Positions 5,550 through 14,081 of a stretch of 28,026 nucleotides of DNA are shown one piece after another. The number at the start of each line of letters is the position of its first letter. Position 1 is the first letter of the stretch. The notes under the pieces were generated by a model, which searched no databases, was not told the DNA's origin, and saw only the letters and a program-made list of their open reading frames with translations. The stretch comes from a virus: positions 1 to 28,026 of IMG/VR virus record IMGVR_UViG_3300027882_000013; one strand, given 5' to 3'. The position numbers and the translations under genes were made by a program.

Positions 5550-5818
5550 CCACCCCGCTCGAACGCGGCGATCTCGGTGACGACGATCTCTGTCCGTATT
5601 GCGAACAGCCGCAAGCGGACTTTTCGCTCATCTATTTTCGACAGCGACCCGTCTGTGCGAGCTGTGCGCCGATTTTGAGTAATTTGCGACGTGAACGGCG
5701 TCGTGCTGCCAAAGAGACACATGGGGCCGTTGTCATTCGTGGACCTGATCAGGCGTCCGACACGCCGAACCGAAAACCGGGGACCGCCGCCAATGGGTCA
5801 GGGCCGTGGGTGGAGTAA
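5546..5818 (+). CDS. Small double-CxxC zinc-finger protein
   Basis: A 90-residue protein with CPYC at 16-19 and CASC at 37-40, a four-cysteine zinc knuckle separated by about 17 residues. A basic helix (LRRERRRAAK) and a low-complexity Pro/Gly tail follow. The start is the ATG of an ATGA overlap with the membrane-protein gene. The same frame is open further upstream, but only as an overlap with real coding sequence. It resembles the many short zinc-ribbon proteins in this block and may bind nucleic acid. No exact family is recognised. Confidence 0.65.
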   Translation: MTTPLERGDLGDDDLCPYCEQPQADFSLIYFRQRPVCASCAPILSNLRRERRRAAKETHGAVVIRGPDQASDTPNRKPGTAANGSGPWVE

Positions 5819-6090
5819 TGAAGCGCCGTGATTTTCTCGCGCGCCTCGGCACTATTCCGCTCAGCGCGTTCGTCTTGTCTCAGACCACCAGTGAGCCATC
5901 GCCCGAGCATCAAGTCGGGGCGCTGGCCATTGGTCCTGATGGCCGCCGCTATCGGTACTACCGCGCAGACCGGCGACTCTCTGAAGGTCATCTCTGTGAG
6001 CGCGAGGATGGGACAATCCTTGGCGTGGCGATTTCGCGGATGGAAAAAGGACAGTACGGCTGGATTCAAACATCCGGCCGAAAGTGGTGA
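5818..6090 (+). CDS. Tat-like signal peptide fused to a decoration-protein-like domain
   Basis: A 90-residue protein. It opens with MKRRDFLARLG, a near-textbook twin-arginine motif, then a short hydrophobic stretch (GTIPLSAFVL). The remainder resembles the phage's own decoration proteins at two places. DGRRYRYYR (41-49) parallels DGRAFRYVL of the 10351 gene, and LGVAISRMEKGQYGWIQTSG (68-87) parallels AGVACYPIAVTQYGWLQTWG. It is as if the central ~110 residues of a decoration protein were removed. The start is the ATG in the TAATG junction; a GTG at 5806 is in frame but breaks the RR motif context. Whether it is exported or ends up on the virion cannot be told from sequence. Confidence 0.7.
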   Translation: MKRRDFLARLGTIPLSAFVLSQTTSEPSPEHQVGALAIGPDGRRYRYYRADRRLSEGHLCEREDGTILGVAISRMEKGQYGWIQTSGRKW

Positions 6091-6422: not shown

Positions 6423-6559
6423 CGCCTGATTCGCGCGAACGTGATCGATTGAATCGTTGGTTGTGCGTCACACCCATTCGCGACGGCATGGCGCCCGATT
6501 CGTCGTGGTCATGGTCTGATATCTGTTGGTGGTTCACTCGAAATCTGCATTCATCATGA
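6419..6559 (+). CDS. Very small hypothetical protein (46 aa)
   Basis: A 46-residue ORF that is easy to miss. It is supported by position: its ATG overlaps the preceding stop (ATGA at 6419-6422) and its TGA overlaps the next ATG (6556-6559), exactly the coupling pattern of the neighbours. The peptide begins MTPDSRERDRLNRWLC and is rich in tryptophan towards the end (SSWSWSDICWWFTR). The MTPxx start is shared with two neighbouring small genes at 6907 and 7278. The function is unknown; the tryptophan-rich end could associate with membranes or proteins. Confidence 0.5.
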   Translation: MTPDSRERDRLNRWLCVTPIRDGMAPDSSWSWSDICWWFTRNLHSS

Positions 6560-6735
6560 AACGCCGTGGATTTCTCAGTCGTCTGCTCGGCGTCGCCATT
6601 GCGCCAGCCATCACGCGCCTCACGCCAGAGCCGGCACCCGTACAACAACCGTTCAAGATCTATGAAGACGAACATGGATATGTGACGCACATCACCGCGA
6701 CCAGCGCCTGTTTCTATCTCAAGAAAGTCTCATGA
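6556..6735 (+). CDS. Small protein with Tat-like signal peptide
   Basis: A 59-residue protein beginning MKRRGFLSRLLGVAIAPAIT, which has the RRxFL twin-arginine motif followed by a hydrophobic segment. The remainder (about 35 residues, PFKIYEDEHGYVTHITATSA then CFYLKKVS) is not recognised and does not clearly match a virion protein here. It starts in an ATGA overlap with the 46-residue ORF, and its stop overlaps the next start in the same way. It is the second of three such signal-bearing proteins in about 2 kb. Export by Tat, or simple membrane anchoring, is inferred only from the N terminus. Confidence 0.62.
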   Translation: MKRRGFLSRLLGVAIAPAITRLTPEPAPVQQPFKIYEDEHGYVTHITATSACFYLKKVS

Positions 6736-6920
6736 GCGAGATGGATTGGAAGGCGTTGCCGTCGGAGCCCGTCGTGATCGAGCCATCGACGGATGCACCG
6801 TGCGACCTGAACGATCTGGCGCGGAGGAAACTCGAGGCAATGCTCACCACAGCGATCCAGACACTGAATCGCGACTTGTTCACGGATGCCGATGACGACA
6901 AGGACTATGACGCCCGCTGA
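6732..6920 (+). CDS. Small acidic hypothetical protein
   Basis: A 62-residue acidic protein. The ATG lies in an ATGA overlap with the Tat-like gene before it. A helical region (DLNDLARRKLEAMLTTAIQT) is followed by an aspartate-rich tail (DADDDKDYD). There are no cysteine pairs or membrane segments. No family is recognised. Confidence 0.58.
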   Translation: MSEMDWKALPSEPVVIEPSTDAPCDLNDLARRKLEAMLTTAIQTLNRDLFTDADDDKDYDAR

Positions 6921-7281
6921 AGCGGATCCGTACATCGAACTCACCGAGTGGCAGCGACCGATCGATGAGCGCCTTGATGTCCAGAAGGCCATCGGGGGTC
7001 TCATCGTGGAGTGGCCGTCAGGCAAGCGCACCCTGGAGTTCTATGCGGGGGATGTCGTCATGAGCGACATTGAGGCCACGGCGGGTTTCGATATGCGATC
7101 ACATAAGACCGAACAACTGGTCAGAACGATGGCGAATTTTCGGCAGCGCGTCATACGCCATGGATATTTCATTCGCGACAAGCACCGAAAAAAGGCGCGG
7201 CGCATCGTGGCGCACGAATGGATACGCATATCCGCGGTGGCCTCCCCGCGTGACTTTTTCGACTGGAGAGCGCCGCAGTGA
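6907..7281 (+). CDS. Hypothetical protein
   Basis: A protein of about 124 residues with no recognised family. Its C-terminal half is strongly basic (FRQRVIRHGYFIRDKHRKKA), ending in DFFDWRAPQ. I chose the ATG at 6907, which gives the MTPAEAD start shared in style with neighbours and a 14-base overlap with the preceding gene. An in-frame ATG at 6886 would add seven residues. It overlaps the next gene by a GTGA junction. The basic half could bind nucleic acid, which is inference. Confidence 0.6.
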   Translation: MTPAEADPYIELTEWQRPIDERLDVQKAIGGLIVEWPSGKRTLEFYAGDVVMSDIEATAGFDMRSHKTEQLVRTMANFRQRVIRHGYFIRDKHRKKARRIVAHEWIRISAVASPRDFFDWRAPQ

Positions 7282-7460: not shown

Positions 7461-7579
7461 TGCGCTACTGTGCCTGTGCGACTCCGTGGGTGAATACGCG
7501 ACCGTCCGGCCAGCAGTACTGCGGACTGTGCGGGCTGGATGTCGCGCCGCCCGAGCCGCCCAAGGACGAGAAGCCGTGA
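7460..7579 (+). CDS. Very small zinc-knuckle protein (39 aa)
   Basis: A 39-residue ORF too short for most gene callers but supported on both sides. Its ATG sits in a TGATG junction with the preceding gene and its TGA overlaps the GTG of the next. Four cysteines, CAC at 4-6 and CGLC at 21-24, can form a compact zinc knuckle, followed by a proline-rich tail. It resembles short CxC..CxxC phage peptides. The function is unknown. Confidence 0.52.
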   Translation: MRYCACATPWVNTRPSGQQYCGLCGLDVAPPEPPKDEKP

Positions 7580-7713
7580 GCGAGTACACGGATCGGAAAG
7601 CCACGGAACGGCTGAAGAGTTTTCGGCGCCAGGTCATGGATACCGTGTGGCTGTCGGCGGTGTTCACGCTCGGGATCTGGCTGGGCGCCGCCATGCGAGG
7701 CCATTGTCCATGA
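7576..7713 (+). CDS. Small single-pass membrane protein (45 aa)
   Basis: A 45-residue ORF starting with GTG in a GTGA overlap. The N terminus is charged (MSEYTDRKATERLKSFRRQ) and a hydrophobic helix follows (VWLSAVFTLGIWLGAAM, residues about 24-40). It is predicted to sit in the inner membrane with the basic part in the cytoplasm. It immediately precedes a Tat-like protein gene. A holin or antiholin role is possible but unsupported, since no endolysin is seen in the window. Confidence 0.55.
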   Translation: MSEYTDRKATERLKSFRRQVMDTVWLSAVFTLGIWLGAAMRGHCP

Positions 7714-7991
7714 ATCGCCGCACGTTTCTCAAAGCCATCGCCACGATCGGCGCCGCCGCCGCGATTCCGGCCGCGCTGATCCCGAAGTGGAAAGTCGACG
7801 AACGTGATGTAACTCAGTACCTCTCATTTCGCGGCCACCGCATCATTTACAGCAAGTATTGCCAACAGGACACCATCTATTTTCTCAATCCGAACGGGCT
7901 TTCGTGGAACGATGGGAGCGGCTGGCGATTCGAAGGTCGCGCCGTTGTGATGAATCCGCGTCGACTCGGCGCGGTTACGGGGATCTCATGA
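7710..7991 (+). CDS. Tat-like signal peptide fused to a capsid-protein C-terminus-like domain
   Basis: A 93-residue protein. Residues 1-25 (MNRRTFLKAIATIGAAAAIP and on) form a textbook twin-arginine signal. Residues 40-93 resemble the C terminus of this phage's major capsid protein. FRGHRIIY parallels FKGQNIMF, TIYFLN parallels TAYILN, and the last residues NPRRLGAVTGIS differ from the capsid's final NPRRLGVVTTIS at only two positions. It starts in an ATGA overlap and is the last gene before the regulatory leader. The protein may be an exported or membrane-tethered capsid fragment or a diverged relic. The match is by eye and the function unknown. Confidence 0.7.
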   Translation: MNRRTFLKAIATIGAAAAIPAALIPKWKVDERDVTQYLSFRGHRIIYSKYCQQDTIYFLNPNGLSWNDGSGWRFEGRAVVMNPRRLGAVTGIS

Positions 7992-8076: not shown

Positions 8077-8152
8077 AAGGACATGGACGAAGGCCATGAG
8101 CATTTGGCAGGGGGGCCTGCCAGAGTCTCATGGCCTTTTTGTTTATGTCCTT
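8077..8152 (+). terminator. Nested hairpin with U-tract: terminator or attenuator
   Basis: Three nested inverted repeats share one axis. The outer stem is AAGGACAT (8077-8084) with ATGTCCTT (8145-8152). The middle stem is AAGGCCATGAG (8090-8100) with CTCATGGCCTT (8127-8137). The inner stem is GGCAGG (8106-8111) with CCTGCC (8116-8121) closed by GGGG. The middle stem is followed by TTTTTGTTT, so alone it is a good intrinsic terminator. It could end the small-gene operon, attenuate the promoter at 8004, or end a ~100-nt RNA started there. The outer stem could compete with termination. Confidence 0.68.
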
Positions 8153-8217: not shown

Positions 8218-9279
8218 ATGGAACCCGAACCCACGACCGCGACGCCGCCCGAGACGACAGGTACCCCAAGTCCGGCTACCACAACGCCGGCGTCTCCCGC
8301 GCCCGCTCCGGTCCAGCGACCCCTCACCGCCTTGGAGGCGTTTGAGCAAGTCGCCGCCACGCAGGAATCCGCTGAGCCCGCGACGCCGGCCTCTGCCGCC
8401 ATAGCGCAGCCGGTCTCAGCCACGCCTGTTGGTGCGCCCGCCGCCGCCGAACCTGGTCCGATTCCGTTTCAACAGCACAAAACGATCCTCGAGAACACCC
8501 GCACGAAAGCCTTCACCGAACGCGATGCGCAGTGGAATCAGTCCTTTGGGTGGGCGCGGAATATCACGCCCGAGCATGGGCCAAGTGTCGTGAAGTTCTA
8601 CCAGGACATGGAGCGCGATCCAGTCGCGTTCTACGTCACGTTAGGACAGACGCTTGCCACGCATCCGCAATTCGGGACGCGCTTTCAGCAGATCACTGGC
8701 GCCAATGGCCACGCGAAGCCACAGGCCAATCTGTCCGATCCCGATCTCGTTGTCGATGACGGGAACGGGCGGCAGATTGCGACCTACGGCGCGGAACGCG
8801 TCCAAGCCATCGTCGCCGACGCCGTGCGGAAAGCCGTGTCGGAAGTACGTCAAGAACTGGCGCCTCTTCGCGATGCGCATCAGCAGAGTCTCGTGGATCA
8901 GCAAAGCCGGGTAGTGCAGCAGCAACTCACTCAGCAAGCGGACACGGTGATGAATCGCGCGACGAAGATCCTGGGCGCGACGATCGATGCGAAGGGACAA
9001 CCCGACGCGCGATCCCAAGCCCTCTGGAGCAAAGTCAGCGCGCTCATGGACGCGGATCCGCAGCTGGATGTGGTGGATGCCGCGCTGCAAGTGCGGGAAC
9101 AGATCGTGGCCCCGCAAGAAACGGAATCCGCCAAGACGGCGGCGGCCGAGGAAATGCGACGGAAGGCGAACGCCAACACGGCCAATGGGGCCGGGTCCGG
9201 CAGTTCGCCCATGACACGGCCCCGCACCGAAAAAGAACTCGCGAAATTTCTGGAGCAACGGGCGGGAGCCTCGGCGTAA
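8218..9279 (+). CDS. Head scaffolding protein
   Basis: A 353-residue protein immediately upstream of the major capsid gene, the usual place for a scaffold that guides procapsid assembly and then leaves. Residues 1-80 are low-complexity Pro/Thr/Ala. A conserved-looking core follows (FQQHKTILENTRTKAFTERD and the WNQSFGWARNITPEHG region). The C-terminal half has long Gln/Glu-rich helices suited to coiled coils (about 210-330), ending with a basic helix TRPRTEKELAKFLEQRAGA. The ATG at 8218 has AGAGG five bases upstream. An in-frame ATG at 8083 would add 45 residues translated through the terminator-like hairpin and is less likely. Assignment rests on position and composition. Confidence 0.78.
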   Translation: MEPEPTTATPPETTGTPSPATTTPASPAPAPVQRPLTALEAFEQVAATQESAEPATPASAAIAQPVSATPVGAPAAAEPGPIPFQQHKTILENTRTKAFTERDAQWNQSFGWARNITPEHGPSVVKFYQDMERDPVAFYVTLGQTLATHPQFGTRFQQITGANGHAKPQANLSDPDLVVDDGNGRQIATYGAERVQAIVADAVRKAVSEVRQELAPLRDAHQQSLVDQQSRVVQQQLTQQADTVMNRATKILGATIDAKGQPDARSQALWSKVSALMDADPQLDVVDAALQVREQIVAPQETESAKTAAAEEMRRKANANTANGAGSGSSPMTRPRTEKELAKFLEQRAGASA

Positions 9280-9302: not shown

Positions 9303-10337
9303 ATGTACATCAAAAGCCTCCTGGGACTCATCCCGACCGCGATCACGCAATCGCCGGATGGGTACCTCTGGACGGCCATCAATAGCGGGCAGAACGTCGC
9401 GTTCGCGTGGGAAGCCTATGTCCCCTCGGACCCGACCGACAACATCTTCCAGCGCCACTGGCTCCTGGAGCAGTTGCGTGCCAACGGCAGTTTCGAAAAG
9501 CAGAACGGCACGGTCGTCCGCTGCAATTTGGAATATGCCCTCAATCCCAACGTGAAGTTCATGAGCTCGCTCGAGCAGCTCCTGATCTCGTTGCCGGACA
9601 CCTTCGACAACGCCGAGTATTCGTGGAAGTTCATCGGCGGCGATGTCCCGATGTCCGACTTTGAGCGCGGCATTAGCGCCGGAGGGGCCGGAAAGTTTGA
9701 TGTCGAAGCGCGCAAGATCACGAACCTCAAGAACACGATGGAAGAGAAAGTCAATCAGTCGATGTTCTCGGACGGCACGGGCACGGCCGGGAAAGAACTC
9801 GGCGGCGTGCAACTCCTCGTGTCCTCGACGCCCACGACTGGAACGGTCGGCTTGATCAATCGCGCGACCTATACGTTCTTCCGCAATCAGCAGATCACCG
9901 GATCGAACACGGGCACGGCGTTCAACAACATTCTGGCGAGCTGGACCAACTCGTACAACAGTTGTTCGAACGGCATCGGCGAACAAAACCCCACGTTCAT
10001 GGTCACGACGCAGACCGTGTTCGAGGGCTACGAAGGACTCACGCCGACGATCGAACGGCTGGTCCGCCAAGAGCCGAGCGACAAATTAGTCCGCGGCTTC
10101 AAGGGCCAGAACATCATGTTCAAAGACATCCCCATCGGGTATGACCCGTTCTGTCCCGCCGCGACTGCCTACATCTTGAACAACAGGAATTTGAAATTCG
10201 TGTACATGCAGTGGATGAAAGGCGAGGCCGCGGTGCGACCGGCAGACGCGTTCTACGATGTGTTCAAAGTGTTGACAATAGGGAACTTAATCACCGACAA
10301 CCCGCGACGCCTCGGCGTCGTCACCACGATTTCGTGA
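9303..10337 (+). CDS. Major capsid protein
   Basis: A 344-residue protein with a strong ribosome site (CGGAGG, 9295-9300) directly after the scaffold, matching a HK97-fold major capsid protein that forms the icosahedral shell. Features of the fold visible by eye are an N-terminal arm, a long helix in the P-domain region (DFERGISAGGAGKFDVEARK, about 119-138), a beta-rich middle with KELGGVQLLV (about 163-172), and a C-terminal part (266-344) with FKGQNIMF, AYILN and the final NPRRLGVVTTIS. No protease gene is seen, and no N-terminal delta domain is obvious because the scaffold is separate. Homology to a particular capsid family needs a search, but the identity as capsid is well supported by size and order. 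Confidence 0.87.
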   Translation: MYIKSLLGLIPTAITQSPDGYLWTAINSGQNVAFAWEAYVPSDPTDNIFQRHWLLEQLRANGSFEKQNGTVVRCNLEYALNPNVKFMSSLEQLLISLPDTFDNAEYSWKFIGGDVPMSDFERGISAGGAGKFDVEARKITNLKNTMEEKVNQSMFSDGTGTAGKELGGVQLLVSSTPTTGTVGLINRATYTFFRNQQITGSNTGTAFNNILASWTNSYNSCSNGIGEQNPTFMVTTQTVFEGYEGLTPTIERLVRQEPSDKLVRGFKGQNIMFKDIPIGYDPFCPAATAYILNNRNLKFVYMQWMKGEAAVRPADAFYDVFKVLTIGNLITDNPRRLGVVTTIS

Positions 10338-10350
10338 GAGGAGAATTCAC

Positions 10351-11103
10351 ATGGCCATTCTCTCCTCACAAGATGTCACCATCGGCAACAGCAACTTCGT
10401 GACGACCGCCGTCGCGCAGTACGATCTCGGCACCCGCGGCTATACGCGAGACGGTCGCGCCTTCCGCTACGTCCTGAACGGCGCGACGTTGGCCGTGACA
10501 GGCGATGTCATGCAAAGCCCCGCCATCGCGGCCGGCAATCTCGCCCGCGCCGTAAACACGACGAGTCTGGTCGCGCAGTTCGCCACGGCCATCACCCTCA
10601 CGTGCGGATCATCCGTCGCCTCAGGGTTCTACAACGACGGCTATCTCTGCGTCGCGTCAGGGGCCGGTCAGGGCTTCGTGTATCAGATCAAGAGCCATCC
10701 GGCGGTCTCCACAGGCGCGACGGGCGTCTTCACGCTCTATGACGAAGACGGCCTCGCCGTCGCCATCACGATCACGTCCACGGTCTCGCTCCTGGCCAGC
10801 AAGTACAACGGCGTGATCCAGATGCCGGTGACGACGCCGACGGGCACGGTCGCAGGCGTCGCGTGCTATCCGATTGCCGTCACGCAATACGGCTGGCTCC
10901 AGACGTGGGGACCGGCCGCTTGCAACGGCGGTGACACGGGTGTCATCGGCACGCCGCAACTCGCGATCGGGTCGACGGCGGGACGCATCACCAGTGCAAC
11001 AGCGGCCTCGCTCATCTCCGGCGCGGGTCAGCTCGTCGGCTATCTCATGCAGGCTGGAATCCTGAGCCAGTATGTGATGATTGACCTCCGTATCGCGCCA
11101 TAG
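10351..11103 (+). CDS. Head decoration protein, copy 1
   Basis: A 250-residue Gly/Thr/Ala/Ser-rich beta protein right after the capsid gene, with ribosome site GAGAGGAG just upstream. It has YTRDGRAFRYVLNG (31-44) and GVACYPIAVTQYGWLQTWG (169-187), the second being a motif (QYGWxQxxG) common in phage head decoration proteins that bind the outside of the shell and stabilise it. It is followed by a second copy, roughly two-thirds identical by eye, so the pair arose by tandem duplication. The high Ser/Thr content matters because an O-GlcNAc-transferase-like gene follows the second copy. Its exact position on the capsid cannot be told from sequence. Confidence 0.78.
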   Translation: MAILSSQDVTIGNSNFVTTAVAQYDLGTRGYTRDGRAFRYVLNGATLAVTGDVMQSPAIAAGNLARAVNTTSLVAQFATAITLTCGSSVASGFYNDGYLCVASGAGQGFVYQIKSHPAVSTGATGVFTLYDEDGLAVAITITSTVSLLASKYNGVIQMPVTTPTGTVAGVACYPIAVTQYGWLQTWGPAACNGGDTGVIGTPQLAIGSTAGRITSATAASLISGAGQLVGYLMQAGILSQYVMIDLRIAP

Positions 11104-11122: not shown

Positions 11123-11881
11123 ATGGCGCTGCTCTGTTCACAGGATGTCGCGCTCGGCGGCACGAATTTCATCTCATCGGCCGCCGAGCAATTCGAACTC
11201 GGAACCCGCGGCTATACCCGAGATGGCCGCGTGTTCCGCTACGTGCTCAATGGCGCTGTGGCACTCGTGGCGGGCGAAGTCATCCAATCGCCCGCCACGG
11301 TCGCCGGCCATCTAACACGCGCCGTCAACACGACCAGTCAGACGAGTTTCGGGGCGACGCTCATCAGCCTGACGTGTGGATCGACGGTTGCGACGGGGTT
11401 CTACAACGAGGGGTATCTGATCGTCGCGAGCGGCGCCGGCCAGGGCTTGCAATACCAAATCAAGAGCCATCCCGCCGTGTCGACTGGCGCCACCGGGGCC
11501 TTTACCCTCTACGACGATGATGCGCTCACCGTGGCGATCACGGCGACGTCGACCGTCTCGCTTATCGCGAACAAATATGCGGGTGTGATTCAGGCCCCCG
11601 TGACGACGGCGACCGGCGTCGTCGTCGGCGTGGCGTGTTATCCGATTGCGATTACGCAGTACGGCTGGATTCAAACGTGGGGCGTCTGTCCGATCCGCGG
11701 GGGCGATACCAATGCGATCGCGACGTGGGCGGATGGGGTCTCGTCGACAGCGGGCCGTGCACGCGGCTTCACCGGGGTGAGTTCGGCAGGGACGCTCATC
11801 ACGGGGCAGGCGATTGGCTTTCTCTTGCAGACCAACGTGGATGGGCAATTCGTCGCGCTTGACCTCCGAATCGCGCCATGA
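11123..11881 (+). CDS. Head decoration protein, copy 2
   Basis: A 252-residue paralogue of the preceding gene, aligned end to end. Shared blocks include LGTRGYTRDGR, RAVNTTS, SGAGQG, YQIKSHPAVSTGATG, GVACYPIAxTQYGWxQTWG and the ending LDLRIAP (copy 1 ends IDLRIAP). The ATG at 11123 lies after TAGGAAAGAAAG and gives a start that matches copy 1 (MALLCSQDV versus MAILSSQDV). The stop overlaps the ATG of the glycosyltransferase (ATGA), linking their expression. Copies may occupy different sites on the shell or assemble as heteromers; that is inference. Confidence 0.78.
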   Translation: MALLCSQDVALGGTNFISSAAEQFELGTRGYTRDGRVFRYVLNGAVALVAGEVIQSPATVAGHLTRAVNTTSQTSFGATLISLTCGSTVATGFYNEGYLIVASGAGQGLQYQIKSHPAVSTGATGAFTLYDDDALTVAITATSTVSLIANKYAGVIQAPVTTATGVVVGVACYPIAITQYGWIQTWGVCPIRGGDTNAIATWADGVSSTAGRARGFTGVSSAGTLITGQAIGFLLQTNVDGQFVALDLRIAP

Positions 11882-13392
11882 ACGAGGCCGAACTCGCGAA
11901 CGCGACCCCGGAAGATCAGCGCCTGATCGCAGAGGCGGAAAAATATGGCGGCATGTCGCAATGGCCGCTCGCCCAGGAGATGCTCTTGAAACTCTGGGCG
12001 CGCGGCTTCCGACGCGACATGACCGCCATGCATTTGGGCGACGCCTACATGAACGATGGCGATTACCAGAAGGCTGTACATTGGCATCGCAAGGCGCTCG
12101 GGCTGAATGGGAATCTGTACCCCGCCCAAGAACATCTGATCTTCCTCGTGGATGCGCAGCTCGAGACGACCGAAGCCGAGGCTAGGGCGGTACGGCGCGA
12201 CTGGTGGTACCGGTACGGCTCGGCCGCCTACCAGCAGCGCCAACCGCATGAGAACGACCCGGACCCTGACAAACGGATCCGTGTCGGCTACGTGAGTGGC
12301 GATTATATGTTCCATTCAGCGGCGATTGCGTTTACCCCAGTCGTGACGCAACACACGCCCGCGATCGAGCCGGTGTTCTATTCGGTGCTCGAGCGCGAAC
12401 GGTACGACCATCGGACGAAACTCTGGATGGACCGGTACGGCGATCACTTCATCGATGCCTCGGGCTGGTCCGCCATGATGCTCGCCAACACGATCCGCGC
12501 CGATCAGATCGATATCCTGGTGGACCTGTCGGGCTACACCGGCAACAACCGACTGTTGACGTTCGCGTACAAACCGGCGCCCATTCAGGTGCAGGCGTGG
12601 GGCTACGTCCTCGGGACGGCCTCGCCGGCGATCGATGTCATCTTCGCGGATCCCATCGTCTGTCCGCCGGAAGTCCGCATGCAGATGGCGGAACGGGTCG
12701 TGGATTTGCCGTCCGTCCTGAGCTATCTGCCGCGGCCGGATCTGCCAGAAGCTACGGAGTTGCCGTGTCTGCACCCGGAGCGCGTCCCCGTCTTCAGCGT
12801 GTTTCAACGCGCCATGAAACTGAACGCCGACTGTCTCTCGGTGTGGCGTGAGCTCATGGCGCGCGTCCCCGAGGCCCAGATCCAATTCAAAGGCGCGGAC
12901 TATTCGCCGAATGTCCGCACGCGGATCGCCGATGCGCTCGACGACTATCGCGGACGCATCTCGTTCGACTTCCAAGCCGAACACAAGGCGCACATGTTGT
13001 CCTATGGCCAGGTGGATCTCGCGCTCGATCCGTGGCCGCAAACGGGCGGGGTGTCGACGCTCGAGGCGCTCTGGATGGGGGTGCCGTGCGTGACGTGGCT
13101 GGGACCACGGATGATCCAGCGCGCCTCGGCGTCGTTTCTCACCACCCTGGGTCTGAGTGAGTGCGTGACCACGACGCGTGACGCGTACATCGAGAAAGCC
13201 GTGGCACTCGTCACGACGGACCGTGATCGGCTCGCCGAGATTCGGCGCACGCTTCGGGAGACGATGAAAGCCTCACCCATCATGAGCGGCTACGTCGACG
13301 CTGTTGAAGCGCAGTACAGAACCTTGTGGCGCACGTGGTGCGCCGAGCAGAGAGAAGTTACCTTATGGCCAAAGACCGCAATGACGGCATAG
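11878..13392 (+). CDS. GT41 O-GlcNAc-transferase-like glycosyltransferase
   Basis: A 504-residue protein with the layout of O-GlcNAc transferase (OGT/SPINDLY, family GT41). A short TPR-type region (about 45-80, MHLGDAYMNDGDYQKAVHWH) precedes the catalytic part. Motifs in order are RVGYVSGDYMFHS (135-147, with H146 matching the OGT active-site histidine), DILVDLSGYT (212-221), PAPIQVQAWGY (234-243), FADP (256-259), SVFQRAMKL (307-315, with K314 matching the UDP-binding lysine) and TGGVSTLEALWMGVPCVTW (389-407). The family transfers GlcNAc or similar sugar from a UDP donor to Ser/Thr. It overlaps decoration copy 2 by ATGA, so a virion protein is a natural substrate candidate. Enzyme family is firm; substrate and sugar are inferred. 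Confidence 0.87.
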   Translation: MNEAELANATPEDQRLIAEAEKYGGMSQWPLAQEMLLKLWARGFRRDMTAMHLGDAYMNDGDYQKAVHWHRKALGLNGNLYPAQEHLIFLVDAQLETTEAEARAVRRDWWYRYGSAAYQQRQPHENDPDPDKRIRVGYVSGDYMFHSAAIAFTPVVTQHTPAIEPVFYSVLERERYDHRTKLWMDRYGDHFIDASGWSAMMLANTIRADQIDILVDLSGYTGNNRLLTFAYKPAPIQVQAWGYVLGTASPAIDVIFADPIVCPPEVRMQMAERVVDLPSVLSYLPRPDLPEATELPCLHPERVPVFSVFQRAMKLNADCLSVWRELMARVPEAQIQFKGADYSPNVRTRIADALDDYRGRISFDFQAEHKAHMLSYGQVDLALDPWPQTGGVSTLEALWMGVPCVTWLGPRMIQRASASFLTTLGLSECVTTTRDAYIEKAVALVTTDRDRLAEIRRTLRETMKASPIMSGYVDAVEAQYRTLWRTWCAEQREVTLWPKTAMTA

Positions 13393-14081
13393 AGGGAGAA
13401 GTCACCCTCGCGCAAGTGCTCGACCGCCTCGCGCGCATCACCCAGGAGAATCACGACCTCCAGCAGCAGGCGCATCTCGTCCAGCGCGAACAACTGAAAC
13501 AGACACGGCGGAAGTCGAATCAATCCGCGCCACTCGCCTCGGTCTTCAATCCGCGCGGCGAAAAAGATTTTCCGATGCCGCCCTTGAAGTGTGATGTGTG
13601 GATGCCCTTCCCGCAGCGGCCCGAGCTCCACGGGATGGACCGCGAGGAAGTGGAATTGATGAATCTGCTCATCGACGACGTGCGCGAGAAACTCCTCGCC
13701 AAAACGGCGCCGGAATACGCCGTGGAGCTCAATGACGATTCCACGGTCACGCTCTGTATTGAGCCGGTGTTCAACCGGACCACGCGCGAACTCGAGCGGA
13801 TTCGGTGGTGTGGCCCGACTGACCCAGATACCCGCATGCCCACGCCGTTTTTCACGACCGAGAACCGGCAGCAGTTCCGATCCCTGCGTGCCTTGTTGCG
13901 CCATATCCTCGGCGACAAGGCCACGACGGTCATGCCGATGAAGGTCGAATACCAGAAGGTCAAGGAGTTTGCGGCGCTCGATGTCATCGACCGGGAAGAT
14001 CGGACGACGCACGGGGACGCGTACGAGAAGCGGCCGTCAGCGACGCACGTCGGGCCGCTCGCCATGTCCATCGGGGAATAA
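13365..14081 (+). CDS. Hypothetical virion-operon protein
   Basis: A 238-residue protein whose ATG at 13365 overlaps the glycosyltransferase end by 28 bases, so the two are probably coupled. A helical N-terminal stretch with heptad-like residues (about 12-45, EVTLAQVLDRLARITQENHD) suggests a coiled coil. The remainder is soluble and mixed, with no motif I recognise. An in-frame GTG at 13326 would add 13 residues inside the previous gene. Being between head decoration and tail-adaptor genes suggests a head or neck component, but this is from position only. Confidence 0.65.
   Translation: MAKDRNDGIEGEVTLAQVLDRLARITQENHDLQQQAHLVQREQLKQTRRKSNQSAPLASVFNPRGEKDFPMPPLKCDVWMPFPQRPELHGMDREEVELMNLLIDDVREKLLAKTAPEYAVELNDDSTVTLCIEPVFNRTTRELERIRWCGPTDPDTRMPTPFFTTENRQQFRSLRALLRHILGDKATTVMPMKVEYQKVKEFAALDVIDREDRTTHGDAYEKRPSATHVGPLAMSIGE

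Follow-up and report, generated by a model that had tools for sequence, protein, structure and literature searches.

A small phage gene combining a twin-arginine-type leader with a miniaturised relative of the major capsid protein C terminus

The gene we report here is characterized by two halves: an N-terminal leader of the twin-arginine (Tat) type and a cargo homologous to the C-terminal part of the major capsid protein (MCP). It lies at 7710..7991 on the + strand of the window, i.e. the whole stretch of 28,026 nucleotides of the virus record IMGVR_UViG_3300027882_000013 that was analysed, and encodes a protein of 93 aa (MNRRTFLKAIATIGAAAAIPAALIPKWKVDERDVTQYLSFRGHRIIYSKYCQQDTIYFLNPNGLSWNDGSGWRFEGRAVVMNPRRLGAVTGIS), hereafter T3. 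As judged from sequence comparison, it is near certain that its cargo is homologous to HK97-fold podovirus-type MCPs over their last ~75 residues. As the best reading of the gene we tentatively favour the view that virion modules have been reused as small proteins located at the envelope.

T3 is a genuine small phage gene. The preceding stop codon and the ATG of T3 overlap in ATGA, and GAGG is found 9 nt 5' of this ATG, which together mark T3 as a translationally coupled gene. The same overlap with the stop of the preceding gene is seen at the starts of two further small genes of the window, T1 and T2, and of a gene from a related phage, G010, all discussed below. An alternative in-frame ATG at 7539 would bury the leader of T3, and the stretch that it would add overlaps two other genes. 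T3 is the final gene ahead of a strong terminator-like hairpin (8088..8140, +; -37.7 kcal/mol, z=-5.5, followed by TTTTTG), which stands between it and the scaffold-like gene. Sequence searches returned no match to T3 in isolate phages or bacterial genomes.

Downstream of the hairpin come the virion genes: the scaffold-like gene (8218..9279, +), whose start is set by a Shine-Dalgarno-like GAGG and whose BLAST homologues lie directly 5' of the MCP in related phages; the MCP itself (9303..10337, +; phrog_9953 E=2.8e-34, NF033394 E=4.9e-51), for relatives of which bacterial genomes gave no match; and two copies of a decoration-type gene (10351..11103 and 11126..11881, both +), homologues of which follow the MCP in related phages. 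We infer the name 'decoration' from this position and from the 'major virion structural protein' of Mx8/Mx9. The two copies are a tandem duplication with 73-75% DNA identity over long stretches; in locus L003 a single copy was seen. Right after them, at 11878-13392, is a gene for a glycosyltransferase of family 41, O-GlcNAc-transferase-like (Pfam PF13844 E=3.5e-34, with TPR matches), which might glycosylate the virion; L003 has a similar gene at the same place.

The leader of T3 (NRRTFLKAIATIGAAAAIPAALIP; 7713..7784, +) displays the motif NRRTFLK and, after it, an Ala/Gly-rich stretch of weak hydrophobicity, in likeness to the TAT signals described by the NCBIfam model TIGR01409 and the Pfam model TAT_signal (PF10518). 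It passes the cut-off of the former (20.9 bits vs 16.7) and just misses the gathering score of the latter (22.1 bits vs 22.7; E=1.3e-4). The T1 leader (KRRDFLA) scores 13.9 bits with TIGR01409, under the cut-off of 16.7, and the T2 leader (KRRGFLS) has no match to this model; hence, the designation Tat is well supported for T3 only. In both T1 and T3 the RR precedes a weakly hydrophobic stretch, from which an N-in/C-out topology is predicted, and we consider it likely that T3 is exported.

The original prediction was that T3 fuses a Tat-like signal to a segment resembling the MCP C terminus. This is borne out by the leader model and by two colinear segments in the cargo. The first, LSFRGHRIIYSKYCQQDTIYFLNPNGLS (7821..7904, +), is the homologue of the MCP hairpin and scores 19.3 bits for this stretch with a profile of the MCP C terminus (E=1.5e-5 in the whole-record search). 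The second, NPRRLGAVTGIS (7953..7988, +), is identical in 10/12 residues to the end of the window MCP, NPRRLGVVTTIS, and in both proteins it stands at the extreme C terminus. The profile was made from the last ~90 residues of 23 MCPs from related viruses and isolate phages, with T3 excluded. In a search of 8210 ORFs it finds T3 at E=6.2e-5, and no other ORF outside the MCPs scores better than E=3.6; the main match aligns LSFRGHRIIYSKYCQQDTIYFLNPNGLS with the MCP hairpin 'lmfkdipvvyDgacpagtmYfLNtryLk', and the second match is the ending. The cargo as a whole reaches 25.4 bits, a score attained by 0/20,000 shuffles (shuffle maximum 9.9), and the reversed sequence gives -1.5.

Two tests in which our own alignments play no part point the same way. 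The curated NCBIfam capsid model NF033394 matches T3 at E=1e-4, with residues 38-77 of T3 placed against positions 233-275 of 311. Its score of 21.6 bits is below the family cut-off of 80 (the window MCP scores 173.8 bits), and T3 is thus not a member of NF033394. A DNA pattern derived from the T3 hairpin and scanned against 2.9 million viral contigs picked out ~30 MCP-sized ORFs, mostly at about 75 aa before the C terminus. An enlarged MCP profile gave E=2e-7 and 6e-7; it was set aside as biased, for it contains MCPs chosen via the motif of T3.

The likeness goes beyond the shared ending at the sequence level: even when truncated by 12 residues at its end, the cargo aligns colinearly with the MCP, with a shuffle p=0.0026 for the whole MCP and p=0.0006 for its residues 261-332. 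Among the motifs that were earlier said to be shared with the window MCP, T-YxLN (TIYFLN in T3, TAYILN in the MCP) and the 10/12 ending stand, and FxGxxI falls: the window MCP has FKDIPI at this site, while the FRGHRI of T3 agrees instead with the FxG consensus of other MCPs. As read from the sequence, the cargo is one β-hairpin plus the extreme C-terminal strand, the ~20 residues between them having been lost. AF2 models are weak (pLDDT 43 from the T3 sequence by itself, and 58.6 when MCP rows were added, a run that is partly circular since those rows are MCPs), and Foldseek gave no usable PDB match. A chance likeness of a short β-hairpin and a 12-residue tail would be eased by the shortness of the matches, by the simplicity of hairpins of this type and by the presence of the motif in an unrelated-looking small viral ORF (L036 1343-1531). 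We regard it as largely refuted and very improbable in view of the two colinear segments, the values of E=6e-5 and 1e-4 from two independent tests, the second of which used a curated family that also names the window MCP, and the 0/20,000 shuffles.

The codons speak to the age of T3. Of the residues that it shares with the MCP, 3/10 in the ending (3.7 expected) and 2/10 in the hairpin (4.8 expected) have the same codon. With codon agreement at or below chance, a recent DNA-level copy of the MCP was rejected as the source of T3, and synonymous sites in the matched segments look saturated. These counts bear on a further explanation, namely that T3 and its like are recombination debris, virion gene fragments joined illegitimately to a leader in a hypervariable block and having little or no function, which we hold to be rather unlikely. 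A protein likeness kept with only 5/20 shared residues encoded by the same codon would need purifying selection at some stage, and its outlasting of the synonymous sites argues against simple debris, in a comparison that rests on twelve residues, too few to be firm; moreover, the ORFs are intact and start-stop coupled.

A second gene of the same block had also been predicted to place a piece of a virion protein behind such a leader, and this too is upheld. T1 (5818..6090, +) encodes 90 aa, with a Tat-like leader and a miniaturised decoration protein. Its cargo matches the decoration-type proteins at E=3.8e-7 in a single-sequence search and again at E=3.8e-7 by a profile made without T1; 0/20,000 shuffles reach the real score. 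The match consists of two colinear segments, decoration positions 14-41 and 159-182, and T1 is without model positions 42-158, an insert, and without everything beyond 182 (the last ~70 residues). The compact decoration versions of Mx8/Mx9 are also without most of this insert, so that T1 looks like a trimmed core. It sits 4.3 kb 5' of the first decoration gene, not in the position after the MCP. A stretch of T1 (6017..6078, +) is repeated in the second decoration gene at 11622-11683, with 71% DNA identity over 62 nt and a 20-nt exact run, and 10/12 shared residues in the repeat have the same codon (5.8 expected, P=0.011). The DNA repeat and the excess of shared codons suggest that T1 descends from this phage's own decoration gene.

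T2 (6556..6735, +; MKRRGFLSRLLGVAIAPAITRL...) is a third Tat-like small ORF, the cargo of which has no recognisable relative and no match to virion proteins in sequence and profile searches; over its final 25 nt it matches the end of the 6090-6422 gene at 84%. When eleven other genes of the block (T2 and ten leaderless ones, with the gene at 7577 left out) were compared with the MCP and decoration profiles, none was alike. The T1 repeat with its 20-nt exact run and codon sharing above expectation, and the 25 nt that T2 has in common with a neighbouring gene, are what favour recombination debris within the window; the occurrence of an RR leader before both window copies, T1 and T3, is not explained by debris alone.

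Genes of the T3 type were sought in other phages, with a mixed outcome: one related phage has such a gene, and strict scans of 2.9 million viral contigs produced no more. The MCP C-terminal profile, searched over 36 whole records, has three non-MCP matches: T3, a small gene of G010 and the small ORF of L036. G010 is the record of L011, and its MCP is 61% identical to that of the window. Its gene at 34293-34574 encodes a TRKSFL leader (MTRKSFLALCGSVLAAPF..., MTRKSFLALCGSVLAAPFVTKK...) followed by an MCP hairpin; the protein has a weak match to NF033394 (E=0.081), and 0/20,000 shuffles score as high. It gives no BLAST alignment to T3, and no T3 orthologue is detectable. The gene 5' of it is homologous to window 6886-7281 (31%, E=7e-9), and the gene 3' of it has a weak Rz-like spanin match (E=0.003) and is a possible spanin. 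With these neighbours the setting, ~20 kb from the MCP of that phage and among membrane and lysis-type genes, is an envelope/lysis one; in the window no lysis gene was identified. The strict pattern scans found a leader and an MCP piece in frame only in the L011 phage, by which a wide family of Tat-plus-MCP genes was rejected; other close relatives are without such genes. On present evidence, the class of leader plus virion module is recurrent yet narrow.

The G010 gene is informative about recombination debris as well. The tail of its protein has a likeness (E=0.005) to a 657-residue virion protein that G010 also encodes, and another small gene of G010 (L116 1839-2162) has a tail, HDPNDPTQVMMALLEAYRRAG, that resembles the C-terminal part of the scaffold protein (E about 0.005); both fit with debris, as does the absence of these genes from relatives. 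The homologues of L116 1839-2162 in G011 and G012 have no match to the scaffold-like tail.

Several other small ORFs came to light alongside these. The ORF of L036 (1343-1531; G018 13542-13616) is a coupled leaderless frame of 62 aa with the MCP-hairpin motif FNGVPIYEHADVPANTIYFINNELL, and may be another capsid-derived mini gene or a chance likeness. Tat-like small ORFs in G011 (L121 647-907) and G005 (L110 8466-8786) have cargo without likeness to virion proteins; one of these cargos is zinc-ribbon-like and encoded between portal and scaffold genes. Clear RRxF leaders with unrelated cargo are also present in the small phage ORFs L002 1831-2010 and L027 3408-3695, and RR-leader mini genes seem to be frequent in uncultured phages. 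At L012 2655-5279 the frame of a large terminase is broken by an apparent intein (CLVAGTRIATEHGERPIETIVVGDRVW ... VLVHNC).

The reading that we favour runs as follows. T3 would have arisen by the joining of a twin-arginine leader to a reduced and diverged copy of the C-terminal region of an HK97-fold, podovirus-type MCP, and T3, T1 and the G010 gene would constitute a small class that recurs among these phages: an export leader coupled to a miniaturised virion module. Either via Tat or as an N-in membrane anchor, the leader would expose the cargo on the periplasmic side of the inner membrane, and there, at a late stage of infection, the compact β module would serve for protein binding at the envelope, with lysis timing and superinfection control as possible tasks. 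We infer the envelope role from the topology of the leader and the lysis-type surroundings of the G010 gene, and the export, the location and the binding role of T3 are predictions throughout. A more specific version, in which exported miniature virion domains (capsid, decoration and possibly others) behind twin-arginine leaders mimic the virion in the envelope, e.g. in superinfection or lysis control, is conceivable though on balance doubtful.

An assembly factor would make different use of the same features: the leader would be an N-terminal helix or a membrane tether, and the MCP-like end and the decoration core would contact capsid subunits in the cytoplasm and position head assembly or adjust it, as a miniature capsid paralogue or an assembly modulator would. 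The residues retained in the mini proteins are the ones used by the capsid itself. The ending of T3 agrees with its own MCP in 10/12 residues, against 6-8/12 for seven related MCPs, despite the apparently saturated synonymous sites, and T3 stands directly 5' of the scaffold and MCP genes. We nonetheless consider such a factor unlikely, because the RR leaders of T1 and T3 predict N-in/C-out and T3 passes the TAT model, the strong terminator divides T3 from the scaffold-MCP unit, and the G010 counterpart is encoded far from its MCP, beside membrane and lysis-type genes.

CapRel (PMC9712102) and staphylococcal Thoeris (PMC11312562) are bacterial defences known to sense the MCP, and they show host proteins to be capable of recognising pieces of it. 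A miniature capsid piece could serve as a decoy that fills a sensor which would otherwise recognise the MCP. These sensors are cytosolic, whereas the export leader of T3 would take a decoy out of the cytoplasm, which weakens this explanation; the decoration-type T1 would in addition require a second sensor, and we regard a decoy as improbable.

The reuse of virion modules at the envelope has a counterpart, by analogy alone, in the antiholin RI of phage T4, a small protein exported by an N-terminal signal, whose site of action late in infection is the periplasmic face (PMC8385771). RI offers an indication of where T3 might work; it differs in being exported via Sec and in having no virion-protein origin. 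With the podovirus capsid family NF033394 (capsid_maj_Podo), T3 shares the hairpin region and the last 12 residues; it differs in comprising ~58 residues of the domain, without the N-terminal three quarters and ~20 residues near the end, and in bearing an export leader. T1 likewise keeps two core segments of the Mx8/Mx9-like decoration-type proteins in the same order, and differs in the missing insert and last ~70 residues and in the added leader. The usual load of the Tat pathway is cofactor-binding enzymes; the cargo of T3, whose export is a prediction, is no such enzyme and in this departs from the proteins recognised by TIGR01409 and PF10518. Capsid proteins, for their part, are viewed as cytoplasmic building blocks. 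In a search of the open literature, outside of which lies most subscription literature, we found nothing comparable among the papers listed on phage Tat substrates and capsid-like exported proteins. The presence of an export leader before a piece of capsid or decoration protein suggests a second use of virion folds by phages, as small proteins that act at the envelope. If true, this would give rise to new phage genes which annotation pipelines overlook owing to the shortness of each half. The leader and the capsid piece are each of a known kind, and it is their combination that is new to us.
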